A stretch of DNA of 64,000 nucleotides from assembly GCF_037975245.1 (NCBI RefSeq), contig NC_092575.1, forward strand, positions 5,994,501 to 6,058,500, read 5' to 3'. The notes under the pieces are model-generated. The model ran no database searches. It was given only the letters and a program-made list of their open reading frames with translations, and was not told the origin of the DNA. This document shows, piece after piece, positions 6,401 to 46,896 of this stretch; position 1 is the stretch's first letter; the number at the start of each line of letters is the position of its first letter. This DNA is from Apostichopus japonicus. Its lineage: Eukaryota; Echinodermata; Holothuroidea; Aspidochirotida; Stichopodidae. The position numbers and the translations under genes were made by a program.

Positions 6401-9400
6401 CATCATCCTTGTTGGACAGACCTAACAAGAAGGGAGAAAAAAAAAAAGAGCGAATACTCACGGCAACTGTTCTGCTAAAACGAAGAGTCCATCCCTTGGA
6501 CTTTCACCTGGAGTAAACTTGTTGTAGTCTATGACCATCCACTGGTTATTGTAACTATAGGTAGCAGAAGAAACCATGGTAACCAAACAACCATTGTATC
6601 ACATATCAACTGTATGATTAACCTTTGACACTATGACTATGCATTATTCAGATTACCATTTGACCTTAATTTGCATTTGTTGATTCCAAAGAAGATTAAA
6701 TGTTGCATCAAACTGATTGGTCCTTATATATCATGTGACTAAATCTAGTTTTATAATTGGCTGGGAGTAGGTTCCTTTTTCACCTTGTGCTGAGGAGTTT
6801 GATAAATTTGCTGCACATCTCAAAGGCGTGTAAATGTAAATGTCAATCATAAAGTTTCTTCAATTGTAATCAAATCATTGATCAAATAAACACGACACTG
6901 AGGGTGGGGGGGTGTTGTTTTGTTGTGATTTTGTCAAGCTAATTACCAGATGATTGTGCCAGTTTGGTGTGAGAAGAAATACTATATAATAACATTCAAA
7001 GGGAACAACTGTGTACAAATTGAAAAATGCAGGTCCTGCTTGAATTATCACTATTAAAGCAGTTGTCATAGATTTAAGCCACTCACGTGCCCATGTTATT
7101 CTCACGAAAAATCTGTACCCAGTCAAATCCATTCTCTGCTAGCCTAAGAGCAACCAAGGTTCGAATCCATGTCTGTAACGCCATCGGTGAGGAGAATTTC
7201 CATAGGTCTGTGTTTTCGTTACCAATAGTAGTTTCCATAACAACCTGTGGTATAAAGGAAATTTGAGTCAAACTTACAGGTGTAATTAGACGATACACAA
7301 CAAATTGAATACTGCACTGCTTTACACAAATGGATACTGATATGATATGGTTAAATAGAATTTATAGTCTATGCCACTTGTGAATAATTTCACTGGTTAT
7401 ACTTCTCCTAACAAAACAAACTATAAATAAATGAGATAAATCGTTTTGTTTAATTATCATCAAAAGATTCAGCTTCCTGGGTACTTATACATTTTGTGAA
7501 TATTATATCATATTTGAGGGTCAATACACCTAGTCAAACAACATTCATCTCAAATTTGTGCCTCCATAATATACTTCTTTAATTACTCATCTATAAAATT
7601 GAACACGTTGGTTGGTGATATCTGTATGAGAATGTATGCATATATATTTGCAGTGTTGTAGTACTCAAAAAAAGCATTTGTACTAAATCTGTTGTACTGG
7701 AGTACTTTTTGCAATGTATAGTACTCGCAGTCATGTTAAGTATACTTAATGTTATTTAGCACTTGCATTGGATATGCTAAAATACTTTATACTTGTACTT
7801 GAGAACTCACTCAGCATCAGAGCCTTACGAGTAATTATAAGGAAAAAAGACAGTAATTTGTATAAAAGAAAGTTGCATAAATTTTATAGATATTCCTATA
7901 GTATTACTCTACTATAGTACTATACTGATACATCTCTACCCCAGCAGTATATCATATAGCCTAGTGTATTACCACGTACATGTAGGCTGTAAGATGAGCG
8001 ATGTATGTTGCTCAAGTATACAACACTTCAATAGAACTACAGTATACTGGTACATCTCTACCCCAGCAGTATATCATACATAGCCTAGTGTATCACCACT
8101 CACATGTAGGCTGTATGAGGGGTGATGTATGTTGCTCAAGTATACAACACTTCAATAGAACTACAGTATACTGGTACATCTGTACCCCAGTAGTATATCA
8201 TACATAGCCTAGTGTATCACCACTCACATGTAGGCTGTATGAGGGGTGATGTATGTTACTAAAGTATACAACACTACAATAGAACTATACTGGTACATCT
8301 GTGCCCCAGCAGTATATCATACATAGCCTAGTGTATCACCACTCACATGTAGGCTGTATGAGGGGTGATGTATGTTGCTAAAGTACACAACACTACAATA
8401 GAACTATACTGGTACATCTGTACCCCAGCAGTATATCATACATAGCCTAGTGTATCACCACTCACATGTAGGCTGTATGAGGGGTGATGTATGTTGCTAA
8501 AGTACACAACACTACAATAGAACTATACTGGTACATCTGTACCCCAGCAGTATATCATACATAGCCTAGTGTATCACCACTCACATGTAGGCTGTATGAG
8601 GGGTGATGTATGTTGCTAAAGTACACAACACTACAATAGAACTATACTGGTACATCTGTGCCCCAGCAGTATATCATACATAGCCTAGTGTATCACCACT
8701 CACATGTAGGCTGTATGAGGGGTGATGTATGTTGCTAAAGTATATAACACTGCAATAGAACTATACTGGTACATCTGTACCCCAGCAGTATATCATACAT
8801 GGCCTAGTGTATCACCACTGACATGTAGGCTGTATGAGGGGTGATGTATGTTGCTAACATTTTGAAGCAAGATTGCAGTATTTCTGTCACTTTAAAAACC
8901 TTTGCACACGACAGGAAGTTGCTTGTTTACAACCAATTTTTCTTTCCAATATCTGAATTTTCAGATTACATGATGGCAGCATTCTGAATTAAGACAATTA
9001 AGAACAACATCCTGGCAATGGTGAATACTCGGAAAGGTTCCGATGAAGTAAGTATATTCATGCACAGTTCTCTAATTCAGATTCTAAACTGATGTTCTTG
9101 ATTGGATCAAAGGCAATTTAGACCACTATAGCATGCTACCATGGTGTGTATACGATGACAGGAATAGTATTGTAAAATGTTTCGAAAATGCCCAAGGACT
9201 CAATACATTTTGCAATAATAGCAGAAACAAAATTTCTCACCAGCTTGCCTCTTGTGACATAAAAGTCATCTCCAGAGAAGAGAACTCCTGGATACGATGT
9301 AAATGCAATTTCATTTCCAGATATCTGGTATTTACCTATAATATTGAAAAATAGACAAAGGTACAAACAATATCATATGTCAAGATGTTGATAAATCAAG

Positions 9401-12400
9401 AAACCAAAAAAAAAAGGGATTAAAAGTCAGATCGGATTTGTAAATTACAGAAATGACATATTTCACAACAAATAAATTCGGGTTTAAAATTTTGAATAGC
9501 ACTTTTCAAGTTTGTGAATTCAAACTGAAAATACTAATGTCCTTTGTGCACAATCACATATCTGTGCATTTGCATAGCAACCAGTTACAGCTATGCATAT
9601 TGCCATGCAAATCAGGTTTTAAGTGCCTCTATGATTGCCATAAGCCCACACATGCTACATCTTGACAACAAAATCCCACAGAAAAATGGCTGCTTCAGGA
9701 TAACCCCCTCCCATTCACCCCACCTGCCTCATTTACAAAATCACTGATCGCCTCTCGCCCTTCTAGAAAGGTTGGTCCCCTACTAAAACTCAGTTTGCAA
9801 ATTTGCGCCCATCTTGAAGTCCTGTGCACGCCACTGCGTTTGGGAGTGCATGCCTCATCCCTTCCGGTGCCAACTACATATATGCCTGTGATGTGTATTT
9901 TACAAAGGTGAATTTTTTTACATTCACAAATATTTGCCCAATAAACTGTTTGCCTGCCTTCCACTGTTTATAGTATCCAATAAAGTAGTTCACACTAACC
10001 TTGCATATTCACAAGACACTTTGCATACTGTGTTCATCATATTAATACCCATGTTAGTCTCTGACCTATCCATATTGTCTTAACCACATACATCGTAAAC
10101 ATTTATCCTAATACTTGACTGTAACTTAAAGGAAAATTCTGCTTCCTATTTTTAGTATTTCACACAACCCATAATTTAGAACATTTCCTACAATTATTAC
10201 ACCTTATCTTGACAGATTTTAGCAAACTCCCGATCACACCTTTCACTGGACAGACGGACAATTGACAGAAAACAAAAGAAACACACAGACACGCACGACT
10301 ACGTTTTAAGCCAGCGATGAAGTCTACATTGGTTTTTGCAAAAATTCTACTCCAAATAGTCGACACGTTTTGAGGAAAATGATAAAGAAATGACATAGGA
10401 TTCCTCAGACGATGACTGGGAAAAGACAGTGGTAGTTCTTGTTTCGACAGCTCACAGAGTTGTCCCATATTTGTGCAGGTAGGCATTCTCAGTCCCAGGA
10501 AATTTTGACATAGGGGGAGGAGGTACAACCCCTTCCCCTTAGCTCCCTTTCGTGGGTCGTGAATTCAATACCCAGTCTCTCCCTCCACCGTCCTACTTCT
10601 GCGTAAATCTTGGCAGACGGACACTTTCGCCAGAAAATATTTTTAAAAAAATCCACTCACTCGTGGGACTCTGGCTGTAGGCCAGGCTGTACTTCTTTAT
10701 CACCCGTAGCATCTCGCTGTAATGGGTCCAGGTATCGTGGGCTACAAACAAATCTGTATTATTCGGAAGCAGTTTGATCAGTGCCGAGCAAGATCCAGAC
10801 CCCAGAGGATGCTTTTCTTCGTCCGGAGGGAAGCCAAGGATGGCCTCGATGTCCTCCAGCTCAAATTTGGCTTGAAGAAGGCTGTAAAAAATGGAAAAAT
10901 GGAAGACAAAGTAATTATTAAACATCAATGAATTTAGCTTGAAGCAGGCTGTTAAAAATTGGGAGCATGGAAAGGCAAGGTAATAAAAGGCGGTGGCATT
11001 TGAGGCAATGAGGCTCAGCAATCGGGAGGTTCCAGGTTCGATACCCGGCCCGGTCATGGTAAGGTGGGTTTTCATCCCAAGAGGATGGTTTTTCCCATCT
11101 GAAATGACTTTCTAAATTGAAAAGATTCCCAAATTTGAGTTAAAAATGTTGAATTGGAAGCCAGCCGACGTGTACGTTGTAATCCATAAGTCCTTGTGGG
11201 TTTCTCCAGGTTTTTGGTTGCTTTAACCGTCGTTAAAATAACTGCTGATTATTATTATTAAAATAACATTACTGAATGCAGTTGGCTAGTACTGCATGTA
11301 GTGTAATGCTCTGCTTCCCAAACTTCAAAAATCCATTCCCCTTAGCTAACCATAAAATTTGAAGGCTTGTTATCATGTCATATGTATAGTTCCTGATTAT
11401 TGATAATTAAATATCATCAGTATCAACCCCAAATTTTAGCAGGCTAGAAAAATCGAAATAAATTTTCAATGTACCACTGCTCTGATAGTAATTTCAGTAT
11501 TTCCCAATTTACTCATTATTTTCCCCTTCCAAGGAAACTTGGATCGGCCACTGGAAAGTGTACCAGTGACAAGACACTGTTCCATTTCAGCAGCAGAAGA
11601 TCATATGAAATTTCACGGCAAAACGTGATGTTTGTATTTTTGCAGACCACTTATATAATGCATATAACAACGGTTCCTTGCATATGCTAACGTAAATACA
11701 GTAGATCTCTCTCTGGGTTTGTTCTCTTGTGACAGAGACAATCAGGCAGGCATATATATTACTTTTCACATTTACAATCCTTCTCAGTTAGTTCAACTAT
11801 ACTCAGCTAGTAGGTACTCACAGCAGACCAAAGCTGTTAACTTTCATGTTATTACTGGGTACACCAGTATTATTATAGTAAGCTGCTTCCATTCCAATTA
11901 ACTGCTGGATAATCAGCTGGACCTAATGAGAAACAAGATGAAGAGGATATCAACATTACATCATGGATAGATGAGGGATATCAGTATTGACAAGATGTGG
12001 GATATCAATGTCGAAAAAATGAGGAGCGCAGTATCGAATAAAATGAGGATAGCAGTATCCAAAAGCAGAGGATAAAAACCAGGGTGTCCCTAACTTTATC
12101 CCCCCAAGAATCCCCTGTGGATGTCAGAGTTGTCCACCAACCCCCAACTTTTCGAGACACAATCTGAGTCATTATTATACTATAATACGTATAATAGCTG
12201 CTTCGTAAAAGATCAAGTATCACATGCACAGTACGGTCCTACTATGGCAACATATGATGGAACGCGAAAAGAGTTTGTCGATAGGTACGACTTTTGTACA
12301 TTACTAAATTATATGAAACATCAGATTTTAGTTCAATAAAAAGTACTCTAGTTTTGACTTTCAGAAACGTCTCACGAACCCCCTGGGATGGACTCACGCA

Positions 12401-16877: not shown

Positions 16878-18116
16878 CTGTCGATGTGGTCTGGAGATCT
16901 ATATTAATTTAAAGAGATAGAAATATACTATTACATATTATAATATATTATTTCCGCTGTTTATTGATAGTTAATGCTGAGCTGCCAACTTTCAAAGTCA
17001 AGTGGCTGTTATGCCTGTTCAATAGTGTCAAAAGCCGCAGGAGGTTTGGCTCAGGTTCTCACTCGAAGCCTATCATTATCACTGTATAAGCCTTACTGTA
17101 TTTTGATTCTTTGAATGCAAATAGGATATTGAATAAGCTTAGCCACCCTTGGCTAGTATTATATTTATTACCTACCCTTTTCTTTGGCAAATTATTCAGA
17201 AAAGTGAAATCCATGAGACGAAGCACTGGCAGTTTACTGTATGTAGACGTATGTCGTTCTACCAATCAATACTGCACCAGTTCAAAGATTTCGCCAGAAT
17301 ATGCAACGTAAGGCCACTCACGTGAGCCTGCGGCTTTATCTGTCACTGTAAAGGACAATAACTTTTTTGGGGAAGTCCCTATTGTACGATACGTCATGGC
17401 TATACTTTAAAGAGCGCTAAATTCAACAGTGGAGCTTGCCCGGTTCCAAAACATGAAAAATGTTAATAGCCGCATGGATTTATTCGATCGTGCACCATAA
17501 GGTGTAATATTAACATAATGTGAGGTAAATAAATTATATAATTGGCTAAGACTTGACAGTTAGGCTGCACTGTGTTAGGCTACACTCGATCACCGTCATA
17601 TTTGTCATTAACGCTAATGTAGTAATAGGCCTAGGCCCTAGTCGTAATAGTATTATTAGTAATGAAAGGCCTCTAACTAACGTTAGGCCTAGCCTAGTAG
17701 TAGTAACAACTTAGAAGTTTAAATTATTTCTCCAATAGTCTAGGTTAACAACTCTTTCAGAATAGCCACTATAAAAAAGTTAGGTAGCATACGCTAAATT
17801 TCTCCTCGTTGTGATCATGGTCTGGATGGAGAGTGACTGAAATAAAATATTGTCTTGATTATATATGGAGGGTTCCTGCCTCCTGTACAGTATGTACGGG
17901 GAAACTGTTAGTTTCAGTTAGCCAATGCCTAAATTGTATACCGAACTGCAATGTAACAAAAATAAGTTTGCTTACTGCTATGTACTACTTTAGTAGACAG
18001 AAAAAATCAATTTCTACTGGGGTTAATGTCTCAACAATGAACAACACCTATAGTATTGTTATTGGAATGATACACATTTATTTTTTTCCTGTTGTAGATT
18101 TCAAACGCAGTGCAAC
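16878..18116. promoter_or_regulatory. Head-to-head intergenic region between PLBD1-like and delta-tubulin genes
   Basis: These 1.24 kb separate the two divergent start codons and must hold both 5' leaders and promoters. I see no convincing TATA box for either gene. A stretch near 17600-17700 is rich in AGGCCTAG-type short palindromes. The arrangement suggests shared or bidirectional regulation, but that is inference from spacing only. Confidence 0.45.
18098..18116 (+). other. TUBD1: Probable 5' UTR exon end of delta-tubulin, downstream of a splice acceptor
   Basis: A strong polypyrimidine tract followed by GTTGTAG ends at 18097, 19 nt before the ATG. It looks like a functional acceptor, so the first exon of the transcript is probably non-coding and lies further upstream within the intergenic region. 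The upstream donor was not identified. Confidence 0.45.
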
Positions 18117-19913
18117 ATGTCAGTTATATCACTGCAGCTGGGACAGTGTGGAAATCAAATAGGGCAGTTATTTTTTGACACATTGATGAGTGACTTGCAA
18201 CAAAGAGAAAAGGAAAGAAATTCCAAAGAATATCAAAGTCGCTGTCTGGATCGCTTCTTTGTCTCTGGTGAAGATCATAAACTTGAAGCCAGGGCCATCT
18301 CCGTGGATACAGAGGGCAAAGTAGTGAGCAATGTGTTCGACCAGGCGAAAAAGACAGGAAGATGGTGCTATCCTTCAGATCAGCAGCTCAGCGGAAGACG
18401 TGGTGCCGGCAACAATTGGGCAGACGGTTTCTACAACCACGGTGCAAAATGCGAACAAGAAGTTTTAGATTTGGTCCAAAGAGAACTGGAGAAATGTGAT
18501 CACTTTGGTGGCTTTTGCAGTTTGATGAGTATAGGTGGAGGCACTGGGTCGGGATTAGGGACCAGAGTCACTCGAGCACTGAAAGAAGCTTATCCCAAAT
18601 CGTTTCTGATCAATGTCTTGGTTTGGCCTCATAGTGCAGGCGAGGTTATTGTACAAAACTATAACGCGGTGCTGTCCATGGCACATCTCTCCGAGAGCTC
18701 TGATGCTCTCCTGATTTTCCAGAATGATGACATCCGTAAGATCGCCCAGACTCTCGGCTCGTCTCCCAAAGTGACTTTTGACGACATGAACCGAGTTGTG
18801 TCGGAGCAGTTGGTGGCATCGTTACAGCCCGCAGTGTCCCACGATGGATCCGATAATCTGCTCGGCCGTTATTTGGAACATTTAGTTCCCCATCCGGATT
18901 ACAAACTATTGACGTCAAGGTTCCTGCCCCAGGTTTCGGAGGCCGCGGTCTCTTTCTCTACGTTTAATTGGCCAGCTTTGACTAAACGAACTTTCCAGAT
19001 GCTCTTGACACAAAGTGTCATAGATGAAGGTACATATATGCTGTATGAAACTTTAAAAGTGTTTTATTTAATATTTTTCCCTGGTTAATTCTTCAGTTTC
19101 TGGTTAAATCTCAAACTTGCATGCATATTTCTGCAGTTCTTAAATCAAATCTGCACTTTTCACTTAAACTCTCTCAAGTAATATTCCTAACACAAACTGG
19201 TTGACAAGGCATCACACACACACACACATGCATCACACATGCCATCAGCATCACAAAGATTCCTTTTACCTTTGGTAAGGAATCAAAAAATGGTTGACTG
19301 CCTAATGTACAGTAGAAGCCCAGTACGAAGTTTTAATACTGTATTTTTATTTTTATTTATAGAAGTCAAAGTTCAGCAGAGTCAATGGATTCACGTTTCC
19401 TTGGTGATTAAAACTTGTAATGGCTAAGCAAAACAAACCAGAATTTTTGTTTATTTGCTATTTAAAGGTCAAATGATCATTCTGCATGCTTGCATTCAGG
19501 TTTTTTTTTTTTTTGTGTGCCTATCAACAGGTTTAAACTGGCACATCAAACCGTCAAACTCACGAAACAAAACTCTTTCCAACTTGATGGTGATTCGAGG
19601 CAAAGGATGTCAGTCAGTCGACACGGGTATCTTCTCCAGCCCGGAGATTTATCCATCCTGGATTCCAAGAGGTGCTGGGTTTGCATCCTTCACCCAGTCT
19701 CTGCCTCTCTTGAGATACGAAAAGTCCACATCCCTCCTGAGCAACTGTCAGACGCCCATCCGTGCCCTAGATACGATGGTTTCGAAAGCCTGGGGTATGT
19801 TTGCTATGCGGGCATACACCCATTGGTACACCCGCTATGGCATGCAAGAAGAGGAATTTATCGACTGCTTTGCAAAACTTGAACAGACCATTGGTAATTA
19901 CAATTCCGTCTAG
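18117..19913 (+). CDS. TUBD1: Delta-tubulin, two coding exons, complete
   Basis: Exons 18117-19029 and 19531-19913 join in phase 1 (GAA-G / GT-TTA), giving 431 residues plus TAG. The N-terminus is the tubulin LGQCGNQIG nucleotide-binding block (residues 8-16). The glycine-rich GTP loop GGGTGSG is at 140-146, preceded by the RGAGNNWADG block at 95-104. GEVIVQNYN and LEHLVPHP match delta-tubulin rather than alpha, beta or gamma, and exon 2 carries the delta-type VIRGK, YEKS, KAWGMFA and LEQ blocks. Delta-tubulin acts at centrioles and basal bodies, where it is needed for triplet microtubules. It is about 20 residues shorter than the human protein; the deficit falls just after the exon junction, so an additional small exon cannot be fully excluded, although the frame is continuous without it. 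The intron has a CA repeat near 19215 and a T-run before the acceptor. Confidence 0.94.
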
Positions 19914-27540: not shown

Positions 27541-30500
27541 TCAAGAAGGATGTTGATCAGGTGATCTGGCTTGGCTGCTGGATCCTTTTGTCTGGACTGT
27601 GACATCATTGATAATCATCTGAGCAATCTGTAGAGCCATTTGTTCTTTAGCCTTTACAAAGAAAATAGAGAGAGAAGGAAGAAAGAAAAAACACAATTGT
27701 CAACAAACGGTTTCCTAACCTCAAACAAACCCTGTGTAGGGTCAATATATGAAAGCCCTAGCCAAATCTTCTTCCCCAAACCTGCTCACTCACTGACACA
27801 TTCACACACTTCCTCACATCTCTGATGTGGAGTGAAGTACAATATCTCACTTCCCTATACATTACATGTAGGGTTATGAGATAATTATGATAGGGTAGAA
27901 ACTTAGAAAGAAAGGAGTACTACAGCCATGTGTCTCATTATCAGGTTCCAATTAAACTGTCAAATAGCTTTGCCTATGAGAAGGTCTCTCGCATCTCACA
28001 TGTTGCTCTTTCGTATTTTCCTTCTTATTTCTCTCATCAATACATTAAAACAAATTTAAATATCTTCAATATCTGTAATTCAAATATTATTCTTTCATTT
28101 CAAAAAGGGCTGAAATTTCTGTAATTTCAAAACGGGTTAAAGCTAGAAAAACAGATGGCAGCCAAAAAAATCTGGTCTTGCAAAAGATAACTTGCGTTCT
28201 CCTTTTTTTCTTTTTCGTATCCTACGTTAGCGTGATGCAGCAGAGTTTGAAATTTGAGAAATAAATGAAGAAGCAATGATTTTCCGATTAACTAAGGAAA
28301 CAATCTTCGTTCTCACCTTATCTTCTTCTTTAGTTACCAACTTTTTCAAAGAAAATTTTGAAGCTGTGGAAAGTAAGCAACAAAAAAAAAGATATAATAT
28401 TTGTCTTTTGACCATCACATAAAATTAAAGATGTACGATTTGTCTATTGACTATCATATAAACTTGATATGTACTATTTGTCTTTTGACTATCATATAAA
28501 TTAGGATGTACTATTTGTCTTTTGACTATCTATAAACTTGAGATGTACTATTTGTCTTTTGACTATCATATAAAATTAGGATGTACTATTTGTCTTTTGA
28601 CTATCATATAAACCTGAGGTGTACTATTTGTCTTTTGACTATCATATAAAATTAGGATGTACTATTTGTCTTTTGACTATCATATAAATTAGGATGTACT
28701 ATTTGTCTTTTGACTATCATATAAAATGGAGATGTACTATTTGTCTTTTGACTATCATATAAAATTAAGATGTACTATTTGTCTTTTGACTATCATATAC
28801 AATTAAGATGTAATACTTGTCTTTTTACTATCATATAAACTTGAGATGTACTATTTGTCTTTTGACTATCATATAAAATTAGGATGTACTATTTGTCTTT
28901 TGACTATCATATAAACTTGAGATGTACTATTTGTCTTTTGACTATCATATAAAATTAGGATGTACTATTTGTCTTTTGACTATCATATAAACTTGAGATG
29001 TACTATTTGTCTTTTGACTATCATATAAAATTAGGATGTACTATTTGTCTTTTGACTATCATATAAACTTGAGATGTACTATTTGTCTTTTGACTATCAT
29101 ATAAAATTAGGATGTACTATTTGTCTTTTGACTATCACATAGAATTAAGATGTACTATTTGTCTTTGACTATCATATAAACTTGAGATGTACTATTTGTC
29201 TTTTGACTATCATATAAAATTAGGATGTACTATTTGTCTTTTGACTATCACATAGAATTAAGATGTACTATTTGTCTTTTGACTATCATATAAAATGGAG
29301 ATGTACTATTTGTCTTTTGACTATCATATAAAATTAAGATGTACTATTTGTCTTTTGACTATCATATACAATTAAGATGTAATACTTGTCTTTTTACTAT
29401 CATATACAATTGAGATGTACTATTTGTCTTTTGACTATCATATAAAATTAGGATGTACTTTTTGTCTTTTGACTATCACATAAAATTAAGATGTACTATT
29501 TGTCTTTTGACTATCATATAAAATTAGGATGTACTATTTGTCTTTTGACTATCACATAAAATTAAGATGTACTATTTGTCTTTTGACTATCATATACAAT
29601 TAAGATGTACTATTTGTCTTTTGACTATCACATAAAATTAAAATGTACTGTTTGTCTTTTGACTATCACATACAATTAAGATGTACTTTTTGTCTTTTGA
29701 CTATCATATACAATTGAGATGTACTATTTGTCTTTTGACTATCATATAAAATGGAGATGTACTATTTGTCTTTTGACTATCATATAAAATTAAGATGTAC
29801 TATTTGTCTTTTGACTATCATATACAATTAAGATGTAATACTTGTCTTTTTACTATCATATAAACTTGAGATGTACTATTTGTCTTTTGACTATCATATA
29901 AAATTAGGATGTACTATTTGTCTTTTGACTATCATATAAACCTGAGGTGTACTATTTGTCTTTTGACTATCATATAAAATTAGGATGTACTATTTGTCTT
30001 TTGACTATCATATAAACTTGAGATGTACTATTTGTCTTTTGACTATCATATAAAATTAGGATGTACTATTTGTCTTTTGACTATCACATAGAATTAAGAT
30101 GTACTATTTGTCTTTGACTATCATATAAACTTGAGATGTACTATTTGTCTTTTGACTATCATATAAAATTAGGATGTACTATTTGTCTTTTGACTATCAC
30201 ATAGAATTAAGATGTACTATTTGTCTTTTGACTATCATATAAAATGGAGATGTACTATTTGTCTTTTGACTATCATATAAAATTAAGATGTACTATTTGT
30301 CTTTTGACTATCATATACAATTAAGATGTAATACTTGTCTTTTTACTATCATATACAATTGAGATGTACTATTTGTCTTTTGACTATCATATAAAATTAG
30401 GATGTACTTTTTGTCTTTTGACTATCACATAAAATTAAGATGTACTATTTGTCTTTTGACTATCATATAAAATTAGGATGTACTATTTGTCTTTTGACTA

Positions 30501-33500
30501 TCACATAAAATTAAGATGTACTATTTGTCTTTTGACTATCATATACAATTAAGATGTACTATTTGTCTTTTGACTATCACATAAAATTAAAATGTACTGT
30601 TTGTCTTTTGACTATCACATACAATTAAGATGTACTTTTTGTCTTTTGACTATCATATACAATTGAGATGTACTATTTGTCTTTTGACTATCACATAAAA
30701 TTAAAATGTACTGTTTGTCTTTTGACTATCATATAAAATTAAGATGTACTATTTGTCTTTTGACCATCATATTAAATTAAGATGTACCCTTTATCTTTTG
30801 ACTAACATAAAAATTTAATCACAGTATTGAAAAGCTGATGCACTTGCAGGGAAAAAAGCTTAAAATGTATAACAGTGACTTAGGACATTCTCAGAAATAG
30901 TTACCTAAACTGAAATTTTTATGGACAGTCTTTCTCACAAAGCTCTTAAGCATATTTTAACCATCAACAGGGTTATATTCAGCAGTGATGGGTGAAGGGA
31001 AGTGGTAAAAGAAGGAAAGAGATGGCAGCAAACTTGAAATGCAGGCTGTCAACTTGCTCTACTTTAAATATATCTTATGTCAGACGAGAGGGTTTCAGAT
31101 TTCATTACTGTAGAAAGACGCATGCCAAATGCTTGTCATGGAGAGTTCTCCATCCCCAGAGAAGAATAAAAAAGTATTGAGAAGATATTTGGAAAATTTC
31201 TTTGGGTTTAGGAAGATACATATTTTTACAGTGTTTTGATTCCCTCTGTGATAGGACTGTGAATTTCCCACAAACTTGCTTCAGAGGGCTTGCAAGGTTT
31301 TTATCAACCCTGGATAAATGTATGCTCTGTCACAGAACAGGACAGGGAGACGCTCAGTTTAACTTAATGGGACAACTCGATATTTACCTGTCCGTTTCTT
31401 AACTGATTCGGGATCGACCTCAAATCCTGGGACAAACTGGCCCATTGAGTCCACCATCCCAAATGATGTCATGTCTCTGTGAACGGAGAGAGAGGGAAAA
31501 ATGTCATTTTAAGAAAATATCACAGAGCTTTTCTTTGGTTGACATGATTTTGAAAATTCTCACATTTCTGATCACATCAGTAATTAATTGCAACATAACT
31601 ATACAAATATGGAACTTTTAATAAAAAACCAACCTGAAGTTTGTATTTCATTATTTCAGTCACAAGGTTCTAAACAAGATCTGCTTTGCTATCAACTACC
31701 TTACTTGTGTCTGTTGTGTGCTGTCACACATCCAGTACACAGTAAAATGTAAATACGAAACATCCGTTACAAGGGTTACTGTACATAGCATGTACAGTGC
31801 CTAGTAGTTGCATATATGTCTGGTGTACAGTGAGTGCAATAATTGTCATTGTTCAATAAAATGCTATATATTATCTGTAGCACAGTAGGTGTAATATAGG
31901 TGTAATATATAAAAGACATGTTTCTTTCATCTCACAACACAGTTACTATTCTGCTCCATTTATTTCAGTCTAGCGTAAAGAAAGGAACTTGACCGGATCT
32001 CGAGATTACAAATTTCGACACAGAGTCTCTACACGGAACGCCAAATTTTGAAATATCGGGGGGGGGGGGGGGGGTTGGGGGATTTTCCCGTTGAAATGTG
32101 GAAGAGGTTTGAATACCCTGGGTCGCTTCTCTTCCATAACGTGTCCGGATCGAGCTGGAGGGGGTCGATGGTCATGTCGCTTTCCATCAGCTTCTTGACT
32201 CCGTCCGCCAGGAGGGTGTTCTTCTGCGGCTTTGGCGTTTCTTTCATTTTGGACGCTTCTTCTGGTATTGGAGGGATCTTGCTCTCGGTCTTCATGGAGT
32301 TGATCAGCTCGGATAAAAATTTATAGTACAACTGACTGGAGAGAAAACCGGGAAAAAAAACCTGCGGAAAAAAAATAAAAAAGTTGAAAACTTCGTGACG
32401 ACAGGTGGGAAGTGTTTTCTTCGTAAACATTTAAATACAACACATGCAAAATTTCTCTACCAAATTCCCTGGCTGCTCACTATTGATGTTAACAATGTAA
32501 CTTTTCTGACAGTTTGAGGTCAGACTGCCAGCTATTTAACTACACAGACTGCATTGTTCAATCCCCAATGGGGTTTTCCCTATCTCTTCTTTTTAAAGTA
32601 TAGCATATTTCCATTGTGTCTTGCTACTGCTACAGGCATATCTGTGGTTGACCTTTCACAACCCTGGTTGGTTCTGAATTCAGACATCTGTGGTCTAGCT
32701 GGTGGGTGTCTATAAAAGGTGCAATTATTTTTTTCATATTTTGTTATGTACAAACAGTAGGACCTTTGAGGAATGATAAATGTGTGACTAGATGGCAGGT
32801 GAAGGAAAACATTTATGTGCTACTTATGTATCATTATGAATGCTTTCTTTTAACTCCTTCTCCTTCATTGATGCAATCAGGTGGTAATTGTCATAATTAC
32901 AGGGGGGTAGGGGTAAGTGGGACATGTGGTGTTGATTTGTGGTTGCTAATCACGAAGACACAACACAAATTTTCCAGTACTTTATTTTTTATTGTATTTC
33001 AACGAAAATGAGAATTTTTCAATTACATTTGATTTATTGGGTCCTTTTTTTTGCTATATTAGTTATTTTTCTGAAAAAAAGCAGTTTTTAATTACAAATA
33101 TGCCATTCTGAGACCATTTTCTCCATTCTTAGACCATTCTCTTCATTCTTAGACCATTCTGTGACCATTCTCTCCATTCTAAGACCATTCTCTCCATTCT
33201 GATACCATTCTCTCCATTCTGATACCATTCTCCCAATTCTGAGACCATTCTCTCCATTCTAAGACCATTCTGTGACCATTCTAAGACCATTCTCTCCATT
33301 CTAAGACCATTGGCTACATTTTCTAAGACCATTCTCTCCATTCTTAGACCATTCTCTCCATTCTAAGACCATTCTCTCCATTCTAAGACCATTGGCTCCA
33401 TTTTCTAAGACCATTCTCTCCATTCAAAGACCATTCTCTCCATTCTAAGTCCACTCTCTCCAGTCTAAGACCACTCTCAAGTCTAAGACCACTCTCTCCA

Positions 33501-36500
33501 GTCTAAGACCACTCTCTCCATTCTAAGACCACTCTCTCCATTCTACGACCACTCTCTCCATTCTAAGACCATTGGCTCCATTTTCTAAGACCATTCTCTC
33601 CATTCTAAGACCATTCTCTCCATTCTAAGACCATTCTCCCCATTCTAAGACCACTCTCCATTCTTAGGTCATTCTCTCTATTCTAAGACCATTCTCTCCA
33701 TTCTAAGACCATTCTCTCCATTCATAGAACATTCTCTTCATTCTTAGACCATTCTCTCCATTCTAAGAACATTCTCTCCATTCTCAGAACATCCTCTCCA
33801 TTCTAATACCATTCTCTCCATTCTAAAACCATTCTCTCCATTCTAAGACCATTCTCTCCATTCTAAGACCATTCTCTTCATTCTAAGACCACTCTCTCCA
33901 TTCATAGACCACTCTCTACATTCTTACACCATTCTCTACGTTCTTAGAACATTCTCTCCATTATAAGACCATTCTCTCCATTCTTAGAACATTCTCTCCA
34001 TTCTAAGACCATTCTCTCCATTCTTAGACCATTCTCTCCATTCTAAGACCATTCTCTCATTCTAAGACCACTCTCTCTATTCTAATACCATTCTCTCCAT
34101 TCTAAAACCATTCTCTCCATTCTAAGACCATTCTCTCCAGTCTAAGACCACTCTCTCCATTCTAAGACCACTCTCTCCAGTCTAAGACCAATCTCTCCAT
34201 TTTAAGACCATTCTGCATTCTAGGACCATTCTCTCCATTCTTAGACTATTATAAGACCATTCTCTCAATTCTAAGACCGTTCTCTCCATTCTAAGACCAT
34301 TCTCTCCATGGATATGATCATACTTACTGTTTCTAAAGTTGTGAACGTCCGCTTCATAGCTGCGGCAAAGCAGTTAGGGAGAGGACCTCCCTCCCTGCAT
34401 ATGTTACTCTCAATCTCACAGCGAATAGCAAAATCAAAGCCCAAGGGATGTTCAGCTTGCAAAGAAAAATATCTGTCAAGGACGGAAAACATTGACTCAA
34501 TGAACAATTGGAGAAGTAGAAACAAAATGATCCAAAATGATTGATGTCAAACATGAAAGAAGAAAAAAAACGTCATTGGAATAAAGGTTACTGAATTAAT
34601 TGCTGTATATAACAAAAAGAAAGATGTGTGGCACTAAGAATAGAATTGAAGTGTCAGGAAGTCAATTTATCATACAGGGGAGAGCTCAAACATCGCGCAA
34701 TATAGTTCCAACCACTTGCAGAGAGTACATAGCGACTAAGTGAAAGCAGATGTAGATCTTCATCTAACAAAGCTTAACAGTAAAATTTGTGACTCTTGAC
34801 TAAGTGGGTGTGACTGCTCGCGACTGACCAGGGCAAACTGTCAGGCTTGATACAAGACTACGACACTGTACATATATTTTATTGACTAACTTATCATAGA
34901 GCACCATGGCATCGTCCTGTGCCTGTCAGGGTTAACTGTTGGTCTTGATACAAGACTACAACATTGTTTTAATGTTCATTGACTAACTTATCATAGAGCA
35001 CCATGGCATCGCTCTGTGCCTGTTGGGGGTTAACTGTCGATCTTGATACAAGACTACGACACTGTTTTAATTTTATTGACTTACTTATCATAGAGCACCA
35101 TGGCATCGTCCTGTGCCTGCTGGGGGTTAACTGTTGGTCTTGATACAAGACTACGACACTGTATATATTTTATTGACTAACTTATCATAGAGCACCATGG
35201 CATCGCCCTGTACCTGCCAGGGTTAACTGTTGGTCTTGATACAAGACTATGACACTGTTTTAAATTTATTGACTTACTTATCATAGAGTACCATAGCATA
35301 TCCCTGTACCTGCCAGGGTTAACTGTTGGTCTTGATACAAGACTATGACACTGTTTTAAATTTATTGACTTACTTATCATAGAGCACCATGGCATCATCT
35401 TGTGCCTGCTGGGCATCGTACTGACCCTGCTGCATCAACAGCTGCTGCTGAAAGTTGCCCGCTGCCAGCCAAAAATGAAGCATGTGAACGGAACCTTCTT
35501 GATCCAAATACTGTCAACAACAACAAAAATTAAGAATAATATTCAACAAAAGTTATACCTACTTATGTACCACAACTTTGTCTTGTGTGTTGTGCTGTTT
35601 TGATTTTAATTTTTTCTCATCAAATTCCACCAATGCAGCAATAACAACAACATAAAAAAAGAAATTCCTGTTCTACAATCAAAATGTTATCAATTAAAGT
35701 GTAATACTTGAGCCATGTTACAATACGCAGCTTGTATGAACACAACATAACATAACAAGATTAAAAATTAGAAGATACAAAAAAAAGAAACATACTTTGT
35801 TCAAACATTTTCAAACTCTTTTGAAGAAAACAACATAAACCAAAGAGAACAAATCTTTTCAGGTAGATATGGTTTAGAGTTTGATAAGAGAGGTGATGTT
35901 TTGCTGAAACTTACTTCCATGAGATAAGAGGTTGCGCTCTCGTTGTAGAGAACATCGGCAAGATACACCTTTCCACTTGTTAAAATATCCACCTGGTATT
36001 TACAGTGGAATTCACTTCTTAAAAATTCTGGAAAATATCTGCACAGTTAAAAGAAAAATCCAACTGAAGTAAATAAAGTACTGCCAATTCAGAAATCAAA
36101 TTATAGTTGAAAAGTTTCAAATTCAAACTTCAACAAATAATCAATAAGAAATTAAAAGAGTACATTAAAATTGTTGGTATTCTCTCGACAGATATTGTGG
36201 TAGACCAAATATGAATCACTCATTAAAATAAACTTGAAATATTACCTCAGTCAAAGATCCATGGTTCTTCCCTTTAAGAGTCCTTACATATTTGTTATCT
36301 TTCTAACAATCAGTGAAGACTCTTCGGTCTAAACAATTCAACATCACTTAAATAAGTAAAGCAAATTAAATACAACTTGAAATACCACTGAGTTTGTTAG
36401 GAATACTCACTGTTTTTCTAAACAACTATAGACATATTCCTGAGCTTCTTTGAAACAATCTGGGTCAAGCTGCCCTCCATCCGGTGGACAAATTTTGGCT

Positions 36501-41383: not shown

Positions 41384-42041
41384 GGTATTTAATCAAAGAT
41401 GTTCACATCGTCGTTGAAAAGACTCTCACTGCATGAAGATTTGACACATTTAAATAATGACATGCCTTGTGAGATGTGAGAAAAACAATTATCTGATCGT
41501 AAAGTGGTTTACGTACTGTACGTTAGCTATTTCGACAACACCAGTTTTGCATAGTCTTCAAGAAACAGTCGCTTCGTCAAAATAGTCTACAGAAGTAAAC
41601 AAATACGCTTGCAAGTTGAGACAATTTCCTTATGCTAATAACCATGCTCCAGAGCACTCATTTTGACAGTACAAACATTTCCTGACCTTCATCTAGTTGA
41701 AACATAATATTCATACTGCTCGCTTTGGCATGATAGACTAGCTACCAGTCATAGGCGTAGGAGGCGGGGGGGGGGGGGGGCTGCTGCCTTCCCAACCAAA
41801 TATTTTTGTGAATGATTCTGGCAATAGGGCCTATAATGAAAAATTTTTAGGGCACCTACCGAAAGAAAAATTGCAATGTGTTTTTCAATGTTTAAACTTA
41901 TATTATTATTATCATTGTTATTGTAACGACTTCCCCAAAAGTTATAACCAATAAGGAAGGGGTAATAACACGGCATATGATTGTATGTAATTGGCATGCG
42001 ATGTAATTACCGATGCATGCCTATATGATATGCACTTTCAG

Positions 42042-43746
42042 CAGTGGCGTCGCCAAGGGGGGGGGGCCAGGGGGCCCCCCCGAGTGCCCCCCCATCTGAG
42101 ATTTGGGTTGGTAAAAAAATATATATATATTTTGTTATATTCAACTCCCATCATCTGAGTTGGTTTTTCATAAGGAAAAAGAAGCACAGTAATTCGTATT
42201 TTCTTCAAATGAGCTACGAAAAAATGAAAAAGTTTATCCTTGAACGTCGGGTATCGAAGTCGTGACTTGCGCCATCACAACAGGTGTCGATATTTACATT
42301 GAATGTGTCAGTGCTCACGCCATACCAGCGGATATACACGTCCGCTTCGCGAGCTACATGACTGTGAGAAGGGAGGGTACTGCAATATGTTGCCTTGGTC
42401 TGAGGTTGACAGGTTAGGAGCTGACGAAATGTGAGAATGTGAGGGTCCGCAGGCACCATACTTGCCTATATTTGTGGACCCATATATTAACCCTGTTGTG
42501 TAGGGGGTGCAGAGGTCATTTGAGGTTAGATGCTTGTAGGAACAAATGGCGAATGTTCACACCTGCATACTGAGCCATACTCGATGTGTGATCAAACTTT
42601 GGATTGCATGGTGAGATCCCTGATAGGAGCCAATAACGATGCTGGAACCTGTTACATCTTAACAGATAATGGGCGAAAACGAGAAAGACAAGAAAGGAGT
42701 CGGGGGTCATGCACACATTAATTCAACAAATGTAGGTTCTATTGATATAGGGTTAGGCATAATATCGACAGCATGTGGTTCATATCCTCTGCAAAATTCT
42801 GCCCCTTGTTAAATTCATTACCTCAAAAATAGCAATTTCTGGAGATATCTTCAGATCGAATTTAGCATCAAATGTGGCAGCATTTTGCATCTAGCCCATC
42901 CTCCGTATGCGAAAATTTTCCAAAGGGGAGGGGGGCAGTGGCGGCGGCACCGGGGGGCTTGGGGGGCTCAGCCCCCAATGAAAAAGTTGAGGGAGCAAAT
43001 GCATGATAAGCCCCCCCCCCCCAATATTTACCAAGGCTCCGAAACGTGCATCTGCCCATTTTTCAATGCATACTTGTCGATCTGTCCGATGCACACGTAT
43101 ACTATATAGGTGTAATAATTTTAGTAAATGCTGGGGGGACCCTCGGCCCGTCCCCTGGCTATAGACCACATTGTCACCCCAACCGCGTCTTCACGCCCCG
43201 TGAAAAGTGGAAGCAGTGAGTGTGAGTACCGGTAAGCGCAACACAAATTCGTCTTAGGCCAAGGACTTGCTTCATTTCAGCCAGTTCTCCAACATCCCCT
43301 TACTACACTCAAAAACGTCTTTGCGAGTACACTACGAGTAACAGCTACTCTCTTAAAACACCATCGAATATACAAATTACAATGTTTTTACAGACTTTTA
43401 CGTGCAATCTGAGAAATTGCAGGCTTGAGACCCATATTTTAGGGCTAGGTATTCGCAGCATAAAACACTCGGGAAGTGCCGTTTCCGGCCATCTGGGGGT
43501 TTGAAAAACCCCAAAATTTCTTGTACGCTCCGCGCCAACCGATGGTGGCGCTCCGCTTAGATAGTCTCTACACATTAGCCCCCCCCCCCAATAATTTTCC
43601 CGTTCTGCCGCGCCTGGAGGGGGCACCCCCTCCCCTTAGACCCCTCCCCCAGGACGGCGATCCGTATCCACCTAGGTCCCCCCCCATCAAATGCTGGTGC
43701 CCCCCTGTGCCCCCCCCCCAGACTGAAAAGTCTGGTGACGCCACTG
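42042..43746. mobile_element. hAT-like element A, inserted in D and interrupted by B1
   Basis: The termini CAGTGGCGTCGCC and GGTGACGCCACTG are inverted repeats, with a perfect 8-bp duplication ACTTTCAG at 42034-42041 and 43747-43754. About 1.0 kb remains without B1. No transposase domain is recognisable. A related, uninterrupted stretch at 47105-47225 confirms where B1 entered. Confidence 0.85.
42936..43616. mobile_element. hAT-like element B, copy B1, inserted in A
   Basis: This 681-bp element starts CAGTGGCGGCGGCACCGG and ends CCGTTCTGCCGCGCCTG. It is flanked by GAGGGGGG and GAGGGGGC (8 bp, one difference). It is the same element as B2 in the opposite orientation. At 43297-43304 it preserves the empty target (reads AGTAAGGG on the minus strand) that element C occupies in B2. 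No ORF of note. Confidence 0.82.
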
Positions 43747-45184
43747 ACTTTCAGATGTTGCACGCGCGCGAAGCGCCCGAAAAATGTTGGTTATATTTTT
43801 CGAGCAAGTCGTTACAGCCTCCCCCCCCCCACCCCACCCCCAATCAAATTGGGCTCCTACACCTATGCTACCAGTGCTCTGAAGCGGGACATGCCGCGGC
43901 CGGTATAGTATCCAACAAATATTATCCCAACTGGGTGTTTCTATCGTAAGTGTCGTGAAATTCAAACCACATAATTATGTAATTCTGTACGGTAAACTTG
44001 TATGCATGGGCATAAGCTATTGTGCTTTTATGTGAGGTCATAGAATCAAGGGTCAAAGCTTAGTAAAGTCAAAATTGTTTTGGTCATAACGCGTGTTGAC
44101 AAAATAACCGCCAATATCACTGTCATGTAGAAAATTAGACTATTATTGTATTAGTCAACGTAAAGATTCAAACTTCAAACCTTGACCAAATATATATCTT
44201 AAAAGGTATTTGAGTCCGACGCCGGACTCGAGCCCATTAAGCATATAAGGATTCGGACTCGGCTGTGCAGAACCAAGACTCGGACTCGGATGTGAAGGAG
44301 TCCGACAGTCACGAGGATCGGATCGAGACAAACGATTCCACTGAAATTTAGCCTGTTGTATAATTATAGGCATATACTTCCCCTGAATTAAATACAATAG
44401 ATCAAATCTTTTTTTTCGTTGTCGTTTTCAAATTAAAATCAAAGAAATAACATGATCTTAACTGTTTGTGTGTGTGGGGTGTGAGTTTACTCAAATATGT
44501 CTCAAAATGTTGATGAAGACCACAGGTATAGGTAAAGTGCGCCGCGTAAAAAGAAATTCTGATGTTTTGTATATTCTCTAAGATAGTTCAAGATTATCAG
44601 ATAGCCCTCAGTAAACTTGGAACTTAAATTGATCATTTATGATTATGGAGTTTGCATCAAATGTGAACCGACCCATGTTATCCTTGGTTATGAAGTTTTA
44701 AGAGGATATGTAATTTCCGCAAAAACACGGCAGTTGAATTGACAATGGTTTCAACGTCGGACATAATAGGCTTGCATGTTTGAATTAAGATCAGACTTAT
44801 ATAGGTCCTATGTCGAGTATTGCCATATTCAGAGCAAATTCATGTCAGGGTCTTTTTTTAATCCAACACTACCCATTCTCAATGAGAGCAAATTTAGGCA
44901 AGACTTTTTTTTTATACTATTTACCTTTTATTCGAAAAGTTTATTACTTGTGGGAAATCTCGTTGGGAAATAAATATGTAGGCCTAAGTTAAAAGTAATT
45001 GTAGCCTAACTATTTTAAACAAAGTTTCATTGAAATGTTGAAATAACATATTCTAAACAATGAATATGCCGAAGATTCATTTAAATGTTTACAAAGAACG
45101 TCAATGGACAAGAGGTTTCTAGCTTGTCCAATAATAATGGACCAGATAACACGTGGGTCGCCAAGGCATATTAGGTTGGGACGG

Positions 45185-45801: not shown

Positions 45802-46896
45802 CAGGCGCGGCGGAACGGAAATATTATAGGGGGGGGGGGCTAATGTGTGGAGACTATCTAAGCGGAGCGCCACCATCGGTGGGCGCGGAGCGTACAAGAA
45901 TTTTTTTTTTTTTTCAAACCCCCAGATGTCCGGAAACGGCACTTCCCGAGTGTTTTATGCTGCGAATACCTAGCCCTAAAATATGTGTCTCAAGCCTGCA
46001 ATTTCTCAGATTGCACGTAAAAGTCTGTAAAAACATTGTAATTTGTATATTCGATGGTGTTTTAAGAGAGTAGCTATTACTCGTAGTGTACTCGCAAAGA
46101 CGTTTTTGAGTGTAGTAAGGGCAATGGCGGAGCTAGGGGTATTGGTCAGGGGGGGGGGGCAAGAATGGTCTGTATGGGCGCTTTCGACACTATCTAAGCG
46201 GAGCGCCACCACAGGTTGGCGCGGAGCGTACAGGAAATTTTTGAGTAAAGATACTCCCTAGATTGCAGGAAATGACCCTTTCCGGGCCTTGCTAATTTGC
46301 AGATAAACGGAGAATAAATAGGTGTCGTCGCCATTTTGTCGGAAAATTGCACCAACAGAATATGACAAATGTCAATAGGTATATGAGAGCGCAATAAAAT
46401 AGTCAATAATCGCGAATAAGTGAAAAGTAGTGAAAAGCTGAAAAGGGCGCCAGCAGTCCATTTGAGTCCGTCAGGGGGGTGGGGCATCCGCCCCTGACTG
46501 TATATATGGACGCTCCGCCACTAAGTAAGGGGATGTTGGAGAACTGGCTGAAATGAGGCAAGTCATTGGCCTAAGACGAAGTTGTGTATACGCTTACCGG
46601 TACTCACACTCACTGCTTCCACTTTTCACGGGGCGTGAAGACGCGGTTGGGGTGACAATGTGGTCTATAGCCAGGGGACGGGCCGAGGGTCCCCCTGCAA
46701 TTACTAAAATTATTACACCTATATAGTATACGTGTGCATCGGACAGATCAACAAGTATGCATTGAAAAATGGGCAGATGCACGTTTCGGAGCCTTGGTAA
46801 ATATTGGGGGGGGCTTATCATGCATTTGCCCCCTCAACTTTTTCATTGAGGGGGCTGAGCCCCCCCCAAGCCCCCCCCCCGGTTCCTCCGCCACTG
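45802..46896. mobile_element. hAT-like element B, copy B2 (inverted), interrupted by element C
   Basis: The ends CAGGCGCGGCGGAACGG and CCGGTTCCTCCGCCACTG are bounded by a perfect 8-bp duplication GGCCCTTC at 45794-45801 and 46897-46904. Removing C and one duplication leaves 685 bp, against 681 bp in B1. The two copies align along their full length in opposite orientation, about 2.2 kb apart. Confidence 0.88.
46122..46523. mobile_element. hAT-like element C, inserted in B2
   Basis: A 402-bp element with ends CAATGGCGGAGC and GCTCCGCCACTA. It is flanked by a perfect 8-bp duplication AGTAAGGG (46114-46121 and 46524-46531). B1 keeps the single-copy target, proving the insertion boundaries. Its segment at about 46190-46245 (AGCGGAGCGCCACC...GGCGCGGAGCGTAC) closely matches the subterminal part of B, so B and C are related families. 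Confidence 0.88.

Follow-up and report, generated by a model that had tools for sequence, protein, structure and literature searches.

A three-layer nest of hAT-type elements whose inner pair probably arrived as a pre-formed composite

We analyzed a 64,000-nucleotide stretch of DNA (C15:5994501-6058500; here, the window) that carries a nest of three hAT-type elements, in which an element designated D contains an element A, and A contains B1, a member of family B. Our main reading, to which we give a probability of about 93%, is that an old D element of ~404 bp received by transposition one copy of an A+B composite that had already formed. An earlier note on this DNA had taken the duplications as evidence that D, A, and B were inserted in that order; this order does not hold for B, which was already within A on arrival and occupies an identical position in every one of the 40 other A+B copies that we fetched. 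Stacked target duplications in one window show stacking, not the order of events there. All searches were conducted in one assembly (671,581,487 bases in 35 contigs).

The layout of the nest, D containing A containing B1, agrees in letters and coordinates with the earlier note (Table 1). Each layer has short terminal inverted repeats. Those of D (41750-43867; CATAGGCGTAGGAG and CATAGGTGTAGGAG) and of A (42042-43746, 1,705 bp; CAGTGGCGTCGCCA and CAGTGGCGTCACCA) each match at 13 of 14 positions, while the ends of B1 are poorer (9/12) and its duplication is inexact, with GAGGGGGG and GAGGGGGC agreeing at 7 of 8 positions. The end motif CAGTGGCGKC, with at most one mismatch, occurs 6 times in the window against 1.59 expected, and 5 of 100 shuffles reach 6; by itself, this motif is weak evidence for the layers. 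The layers exceed chance because each is found again elsewhere as a repeat with defined borders and duplications: each is a separate family with its own 8-bp duplications across the genome, which confirms the three-layer nest as real. None of the three elements carries a transposase, as the earlier note stated. The nest contains 37 stop-to-stop frames of at least 40 amino acids, and a scan of five short ones gave no Pfam match; the longest frame (161 amino acids, 43464-43949) lies outside those five.

Table 1 Features of the nest, in window coordinates
Feature	Position	Strand	Detail
D target duplication, left	41742-41749	no strand	CTACCAGT
D, left part	41750-42041	+	39/40 scored places continuous across the A site; 12/18 exact duplications
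A target duplication, left, within D	42034-42041	no strand	ACTTTCAG
A, left part	42042-42935	+	Same ends as the larger element C13:19478631-19488727
B target duplication, left, within A	42928-42935	no strand	GAGGGGGG
B1, short B form without the X insert	42936-43616	+	Position same in 40/40 other A+B copies
Empty X site in B1	43297-43304	no strand	CCCTTACT, present once; X sits here in long-form B
B target duplication, right, within A	43617-43624	no strand	GAGGGGGC
A, right part	43625-43746	+	With 42920-42935, gives the G/C palindrome
A target duplication, right, within D	43747-43754	no strand	ACTTTCAG
D, right part	43755-43867	+	Right end as in L085
D target duplication, right	43868-43875	no strand	CTACCAGT

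D is an independent, old, non-autonomous hAT-type family. A query representing the empty site, with A and one duplication removed, returned 40 scored places, namely the window and 39 others, and each of the 39 gives a single unbroken alignment through the A site (82 to 86% identity). D is older than the insertion of A, as had been proposed. Of 18 fetched copies, 12 are flanked by exact 8-bp duplications, and the other 6 show 2 to 6 mismatches in theirs. Median divergence from the group majority is 0.060 across 19 copies, and the window copy stands at 0.086. The D right end was also found in the transposase-bearing locus L085 described below. As a separate observation, the exact flank ACGGTAGTTC adjoins 25 of the 100 listed D right ends, alongside several near variants, and D may itself be carried by a different amplified repeat.

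A is a young family in its own right and exists both with and without B; B-free copies are common. With B and one duplication removed from the query, all 40 scored places were contiguous (95 to 97%); 14 of 16 fetched copies have exact duplications, and these 14 span 557 to 1,108 bp, an empty A being ~1.0 kb long. The whole nest as a query returned 40 scored places, most of them full-length A+B copies (94 to 98%), and the outer duplications of the 20 full copies fetched are exact in 18, carry one mismatch in L033, and show no match in L035. B1 as a query also returned 40 scored places, 14 of which (window included) were already among the whole-nest places; we fetched 20 of the remaining 26. In all 20 of these and in all 20 full copies from the whole-nest search, A continues on both sides of B, so that B occupies one place in 41 of 41 A+B copies (40 fetched plus the window). 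The left B flank differs from GAGGGGGC+CAGTGG in 38 of these 41, the 38 being those that are readable. The exact left A+B junction occurs 125 times in the genome, and its pattern fits 26 of the 41 known copies, giving an estimate of ~197 copies; this figure of ~200 is rough, the calibration copies having been picked for similarity. Median divergence from the group majority is 0.013 for B in A and 0.011 for A in A+B.

B is likewise an independent family. Its left-end pattern, with non-G at three flank positions, occurs at 512 places, of which 100 were listed; all 12 solo copies in a first set fetched from these have exact duplications and lengths of 656 to 1,235. Among 7 more solo copies, picked for their recurring flanks, the duplication is exact in 1, has one mismatch in 2, and was not found in 4. 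The median divergence of solo B from the group majority is 0.021. Solo copies that the earlier note had suggested looking for (D without A, A without B, and B without A) are all present in the genome.

A further hAT-type element, X (~400 bp; TAGTGGCGGAGC...GCTCCGCCACTG), is inserted at CCCTTACT in most of the long solo B copies. X was seen in 11 of 19 solo B loci, 5 of which have both duplications exact, and is a fourth family riding within B. The window itself contains another full-length B, which encloses X (45802-46896, minus strand, 93% to L041); GAAGGGCC flanks this B on both sides and CCCTTACT flanks the inner X on both sides. B also lies inside a repeat, R, at two sites (L053-L055 and L044/L059), and R lies inside the A copy L076. 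There (L076 926-1773), an A copy with the duplication CGCATAGG holds R with a hAT C-terminal exon fragment. We rejected R as the transposase source of A: the hATC fragment belongs to R, which L077 has in common at 95%, and not to A proper, so R is a nested stranger. In addition, a module of ~100 bp at the B right end (e.g., L084 4701-4800) occurs twice in B+X and lies near one end of L079, L080, L085, L087, and L088 at 75 to 84%.

Each family has a transposase-bearing relative with the same termini, of the kind that the earlier note had proposed to look for; the transposase frame is open in the relatives of B and D and broken in that of A. Among the first 13 transposase loci searched were the relatives of B and D but not that of A, which was recovered from 5 further loci. 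The B relative (L091/L084; C17:7007863-7013383, 5,521 bp, AGGCTGTA on both sides) has the B left and right ends and one open frame of 796 amino acids with DUF4371 and hATC domains, and a second locus with a 796-amino-acid frame is present among the transposase matches listed. The D relative (L111/L085; C5:1724996-1731527, 6,532 bp, CTTCTCAT on both sides) has one open frame of 801 amino acids with the same two domains. PF14291 and PF05699 score above the cut-off in both proteins; for the 796-amino-acid protein, no solved structure was matched by sequence at an E value of 0.01. The A relative (L117/L115; C13:19478631-19488727, 10,097 bp, GTGGGAAG on both sides) aligns at 94% with positions 1-322 and 321-1016 of A, and A thus resembles this element with its interior removed. 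The DUF4371 and hATC domains of the larger element fall in two different overlapping frames, and this copy is broken or spliced; because its transposase is split in this way, it is at most a candidate source of the transposase behind the A burst. A near-identical repeat inside the A relative (L117 2467-2680 and L115 1020-1191), which also matches both flanks of the A copy L034, probably represents the two LTRs of an inserted retroelement.

On the main reading, A and D would each descend, by shortening and loss of the transposase, from a different Tip-group hAT transposon, and B1 would be a shortened derivative of a third. That D, A, and B would have moved in trans, as the earlier note put it, is well supported by same-termini elements with hAT transposase genes (B and D, with the A gene broken).

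We then considered how B came to lie in A. The findings that bear on a composite are the same insertion in many dispersed copies, differing outer duplications, and free copies of both A and B. In a tree of B sequences, from which a length filter had removed 3 of the 19 solo loci, the 41 B-in-A rows fall on one side of a branch with support of 98/87, opposite 16 solo rows, and the B-in-A clade appears in 97% of 200 bootstrap trees, although this bootstrap was unsettled. In the A tree, A+B copies do not form one clade: 3 changes are needed, 0% of bootstrap trees require 1, the branches around A+B are poorly supported, and the bootstrap was again unsettled; a single A+B origin is not rejected on this tree (p-AU 0.30). 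The pairs L021+L022, L028+L030, and L036+L038 recur in both trees, and the A and B distance matrices of 21 copies are correlated (Mantel r = 0.55, p = 0.0001).

The absence of an A+B clade in the A tree is what many independent insertions of B into one hotspot of A would leave, and other B insertions do touch the same palindrome, with right flanks GGACACCCCC at C1:14065071 and CCCCTCCCCT at C1:4986386; the left flanks of L056-L058 touch it as well. Against this, B-in-A is one clade, the position of B is identical in every copy, and A and B distances correlate, and we hold repeated insertion to be very improbable. An order of D, A, and finally B at the window locus is exceedingly unlikely: the duplications of the window alone permit it, but the fixed position of B in the other A+B copies refutes it, and the A and B parts of the window copy share relatives across both trees, grouping with L021-L023 in each. 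There is hardly any chance that A is a single 1.7-kb element and B merely its interior. The ends of B1 are indeed internal to a larger element in all 40 other A+B copies, a finding that the earlier note had named as telling against its layers, but B stands as separate through its solo copies, which have their own duplications, through its larger transposase-bearing relative, and through the 40 of 40 scored places where A runs on without it; the empty sites and solo copies rule this reading out. Spread of A+B by segmental duplication or gene conversion with no transposition has next to no probability: a few A ends share local flanks, such as TTTACATCAG four times in C8:17.04-17.11 Mb, but 19 of the 20 full A+B copies fetched are each bounded by a separate outer 8-bp duplication and 90 of 100 listed A right flanks are distinct.

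Under the pre-formed composite, B would have inserted once into an ancestral A copy, entering at the G/C palindrome in the right subterminal region of A. The ends of A would then be recognized in trans by the transposase of its parent, and B would travel along as dead cargo, reaching roughly 200 sites that include the one inside D. Cut-and-paste movement by these transposases is suggested by their family membership. Read in this way, the nest is a cleanly dated case of one hAT-type family hitch-hiking inside another: empty sites exist, every partner also occurs free, and each family has a relative that bears a transposase.

The G/C palindrome (CCAAAGGGGAGGGG..ACCCCCTCCCC) lies near one end and is common to several hAT families; its 2,567 exact uninterrupted occurrences in the genome are therefore no count of A. 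Besides B within A, the B right flanks GGACACCCCC and CCCCTCCCCT match it, CCCCTCCCCT fitting a reversed control too, and CTTAGACC, within the palindrome, is where A is inserted in L069 and at 3 of the 100 right ends listed. In L056-L058, three copies with flanks 99% alike, B adjoins the palindrome of an A-like flank; these loci looked like a second amplified fusion of B in an A-like element, but a matching right duplication was sought in L056 and L057 and not found. It is conceivable, though in our judgment rather unlikely, that other hAT elements use the palindrome as a landing pad and that fusions arise often and spread under the ends of the carrier; the share of insertion points in library repeats (9/68 versus 4.4% of control points, below) is a further pointer to this. 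Separately, at C1:2188359-2189213 the hAT end module forms a small tandem array in which seven palindrome copies are spaced by ~138 bp.

The idea that these families prefer landing in each other is suggestive and unproven. We compared the flanks of 68 loci (40 A+B, 16 A, and 12 B) with a library of nest elements and fetched transposase loci. Four have clear hAT hosts: R for L044, the D relative for L070, an L083-type end (site CTTAGACC) for L069, and an end module of ~100 bp for L030. The hosts of L005 and L074 are ambiguous (ends of the L082 element, a possible host of L005, were looked for and not found), L034 lies in an LTR-like repeat, and L014 and L028 lie in an unnamed repeat. Of 2,892 control points placed in the window beyond the nest, 72 (2.5%) fall in hAT copies and 126 (4.4%) in any library repeat. 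The strict count of 4/68 gives p = 0.09, whereas adding the two ambiguous hosts (6/68) gives p = 0.007, and counting right flanks in any library repeat (9/68) gives p = 0.003; these p values are optimistic because the control is a single 64-kb window, which has few repeats, and the library was built from such elements.

Target sites were taken from the first 100 listed right ends per family, out of 295 exact ends for A, 411 for D, and 769 for B. After near-identical flanks were collapsed and four A+B-type flanks were dropped from B, 62 D, 86 A, and 74 B sites remained. Among these listed ends, D and A favor a central purine-pyrimidine step (D, 46/62 versus 15.5 expected, p = 6e-16; A, 34/86 versus 21.5, p = 0.002), and B has 15/74 versus 18.5 expected. 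A TRYA center was found at 14 D sites versus 1.25 expected, 10 A sites versus 1.5, and 3 B sites versus 1.0, again among the ends listed; the TRYA core is absent from all three target sites of the window nest. Target sites of Ac-type elements follow nTnnnnAn and those of Buster-type elements nnnTAnnn. Neither pattern fits the D or A sites. Together, D, A, and B give more than 200 target sites for Tip-group hATs, a group whose target preference is described as uninvestigated in PMC3942097.

Our literature search returned no description of the D, A, or B families, which may be known already. According to PMC3942097, BuT2 of the Tip group encodes a transposase with DUF4371 and a hAT C-terminal dimerization domain, the combination found here in the B and D relatives; the Tip group and its MITEs also share with the present elements 8-bp duplications, short inverted ends, and MITE-like derivatives that arose by internal deletion and keep the ends. 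By contrast, the present case has three nested families with G-rich/C-rich subterminal tracts, one pair of which is amplified as a unit. MER6 is a precedent for the spread of cargo by a DNA transposon: PMC6887750 presents it as a mariner MITE carrying a V-SINE piece that spread in the burst of the transposon. In both cases, a foreign mobile element spread inside a non-autonomous DNA transposon, but MER6 pairs SINE cargo with a Tc1/mariner carrier, whereas here both partners are hAT type and both occur free in the same genome. Ds within Ds in maize, again hAT elements within hAT elements, is rare according to PMC3260210, probably since nested Ds elements break chromosomes; here, by contrast, the ends of carrier and cargo differ and the pair stands at roughly 200 copies.

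Elsewhere in the window, positions 1787-2132 hold a hAT-type element of 346 bp, of the same type as L112/L083, with ends CAGTGGTGTAGGAAGG...TTCCTACGCCCTTG and ATTGGGTT on both sides. Frames at 18054-19088 (plus strand) and 10593-11111 (minus strand) match tubulin GTPase and phospholipase B domains, respectively, and three tandem arrays are present, at 28389-30815 (38 bp x 64), 33103-34309 (20 bp x 61), and 7909-8857 (119 bp x 8).
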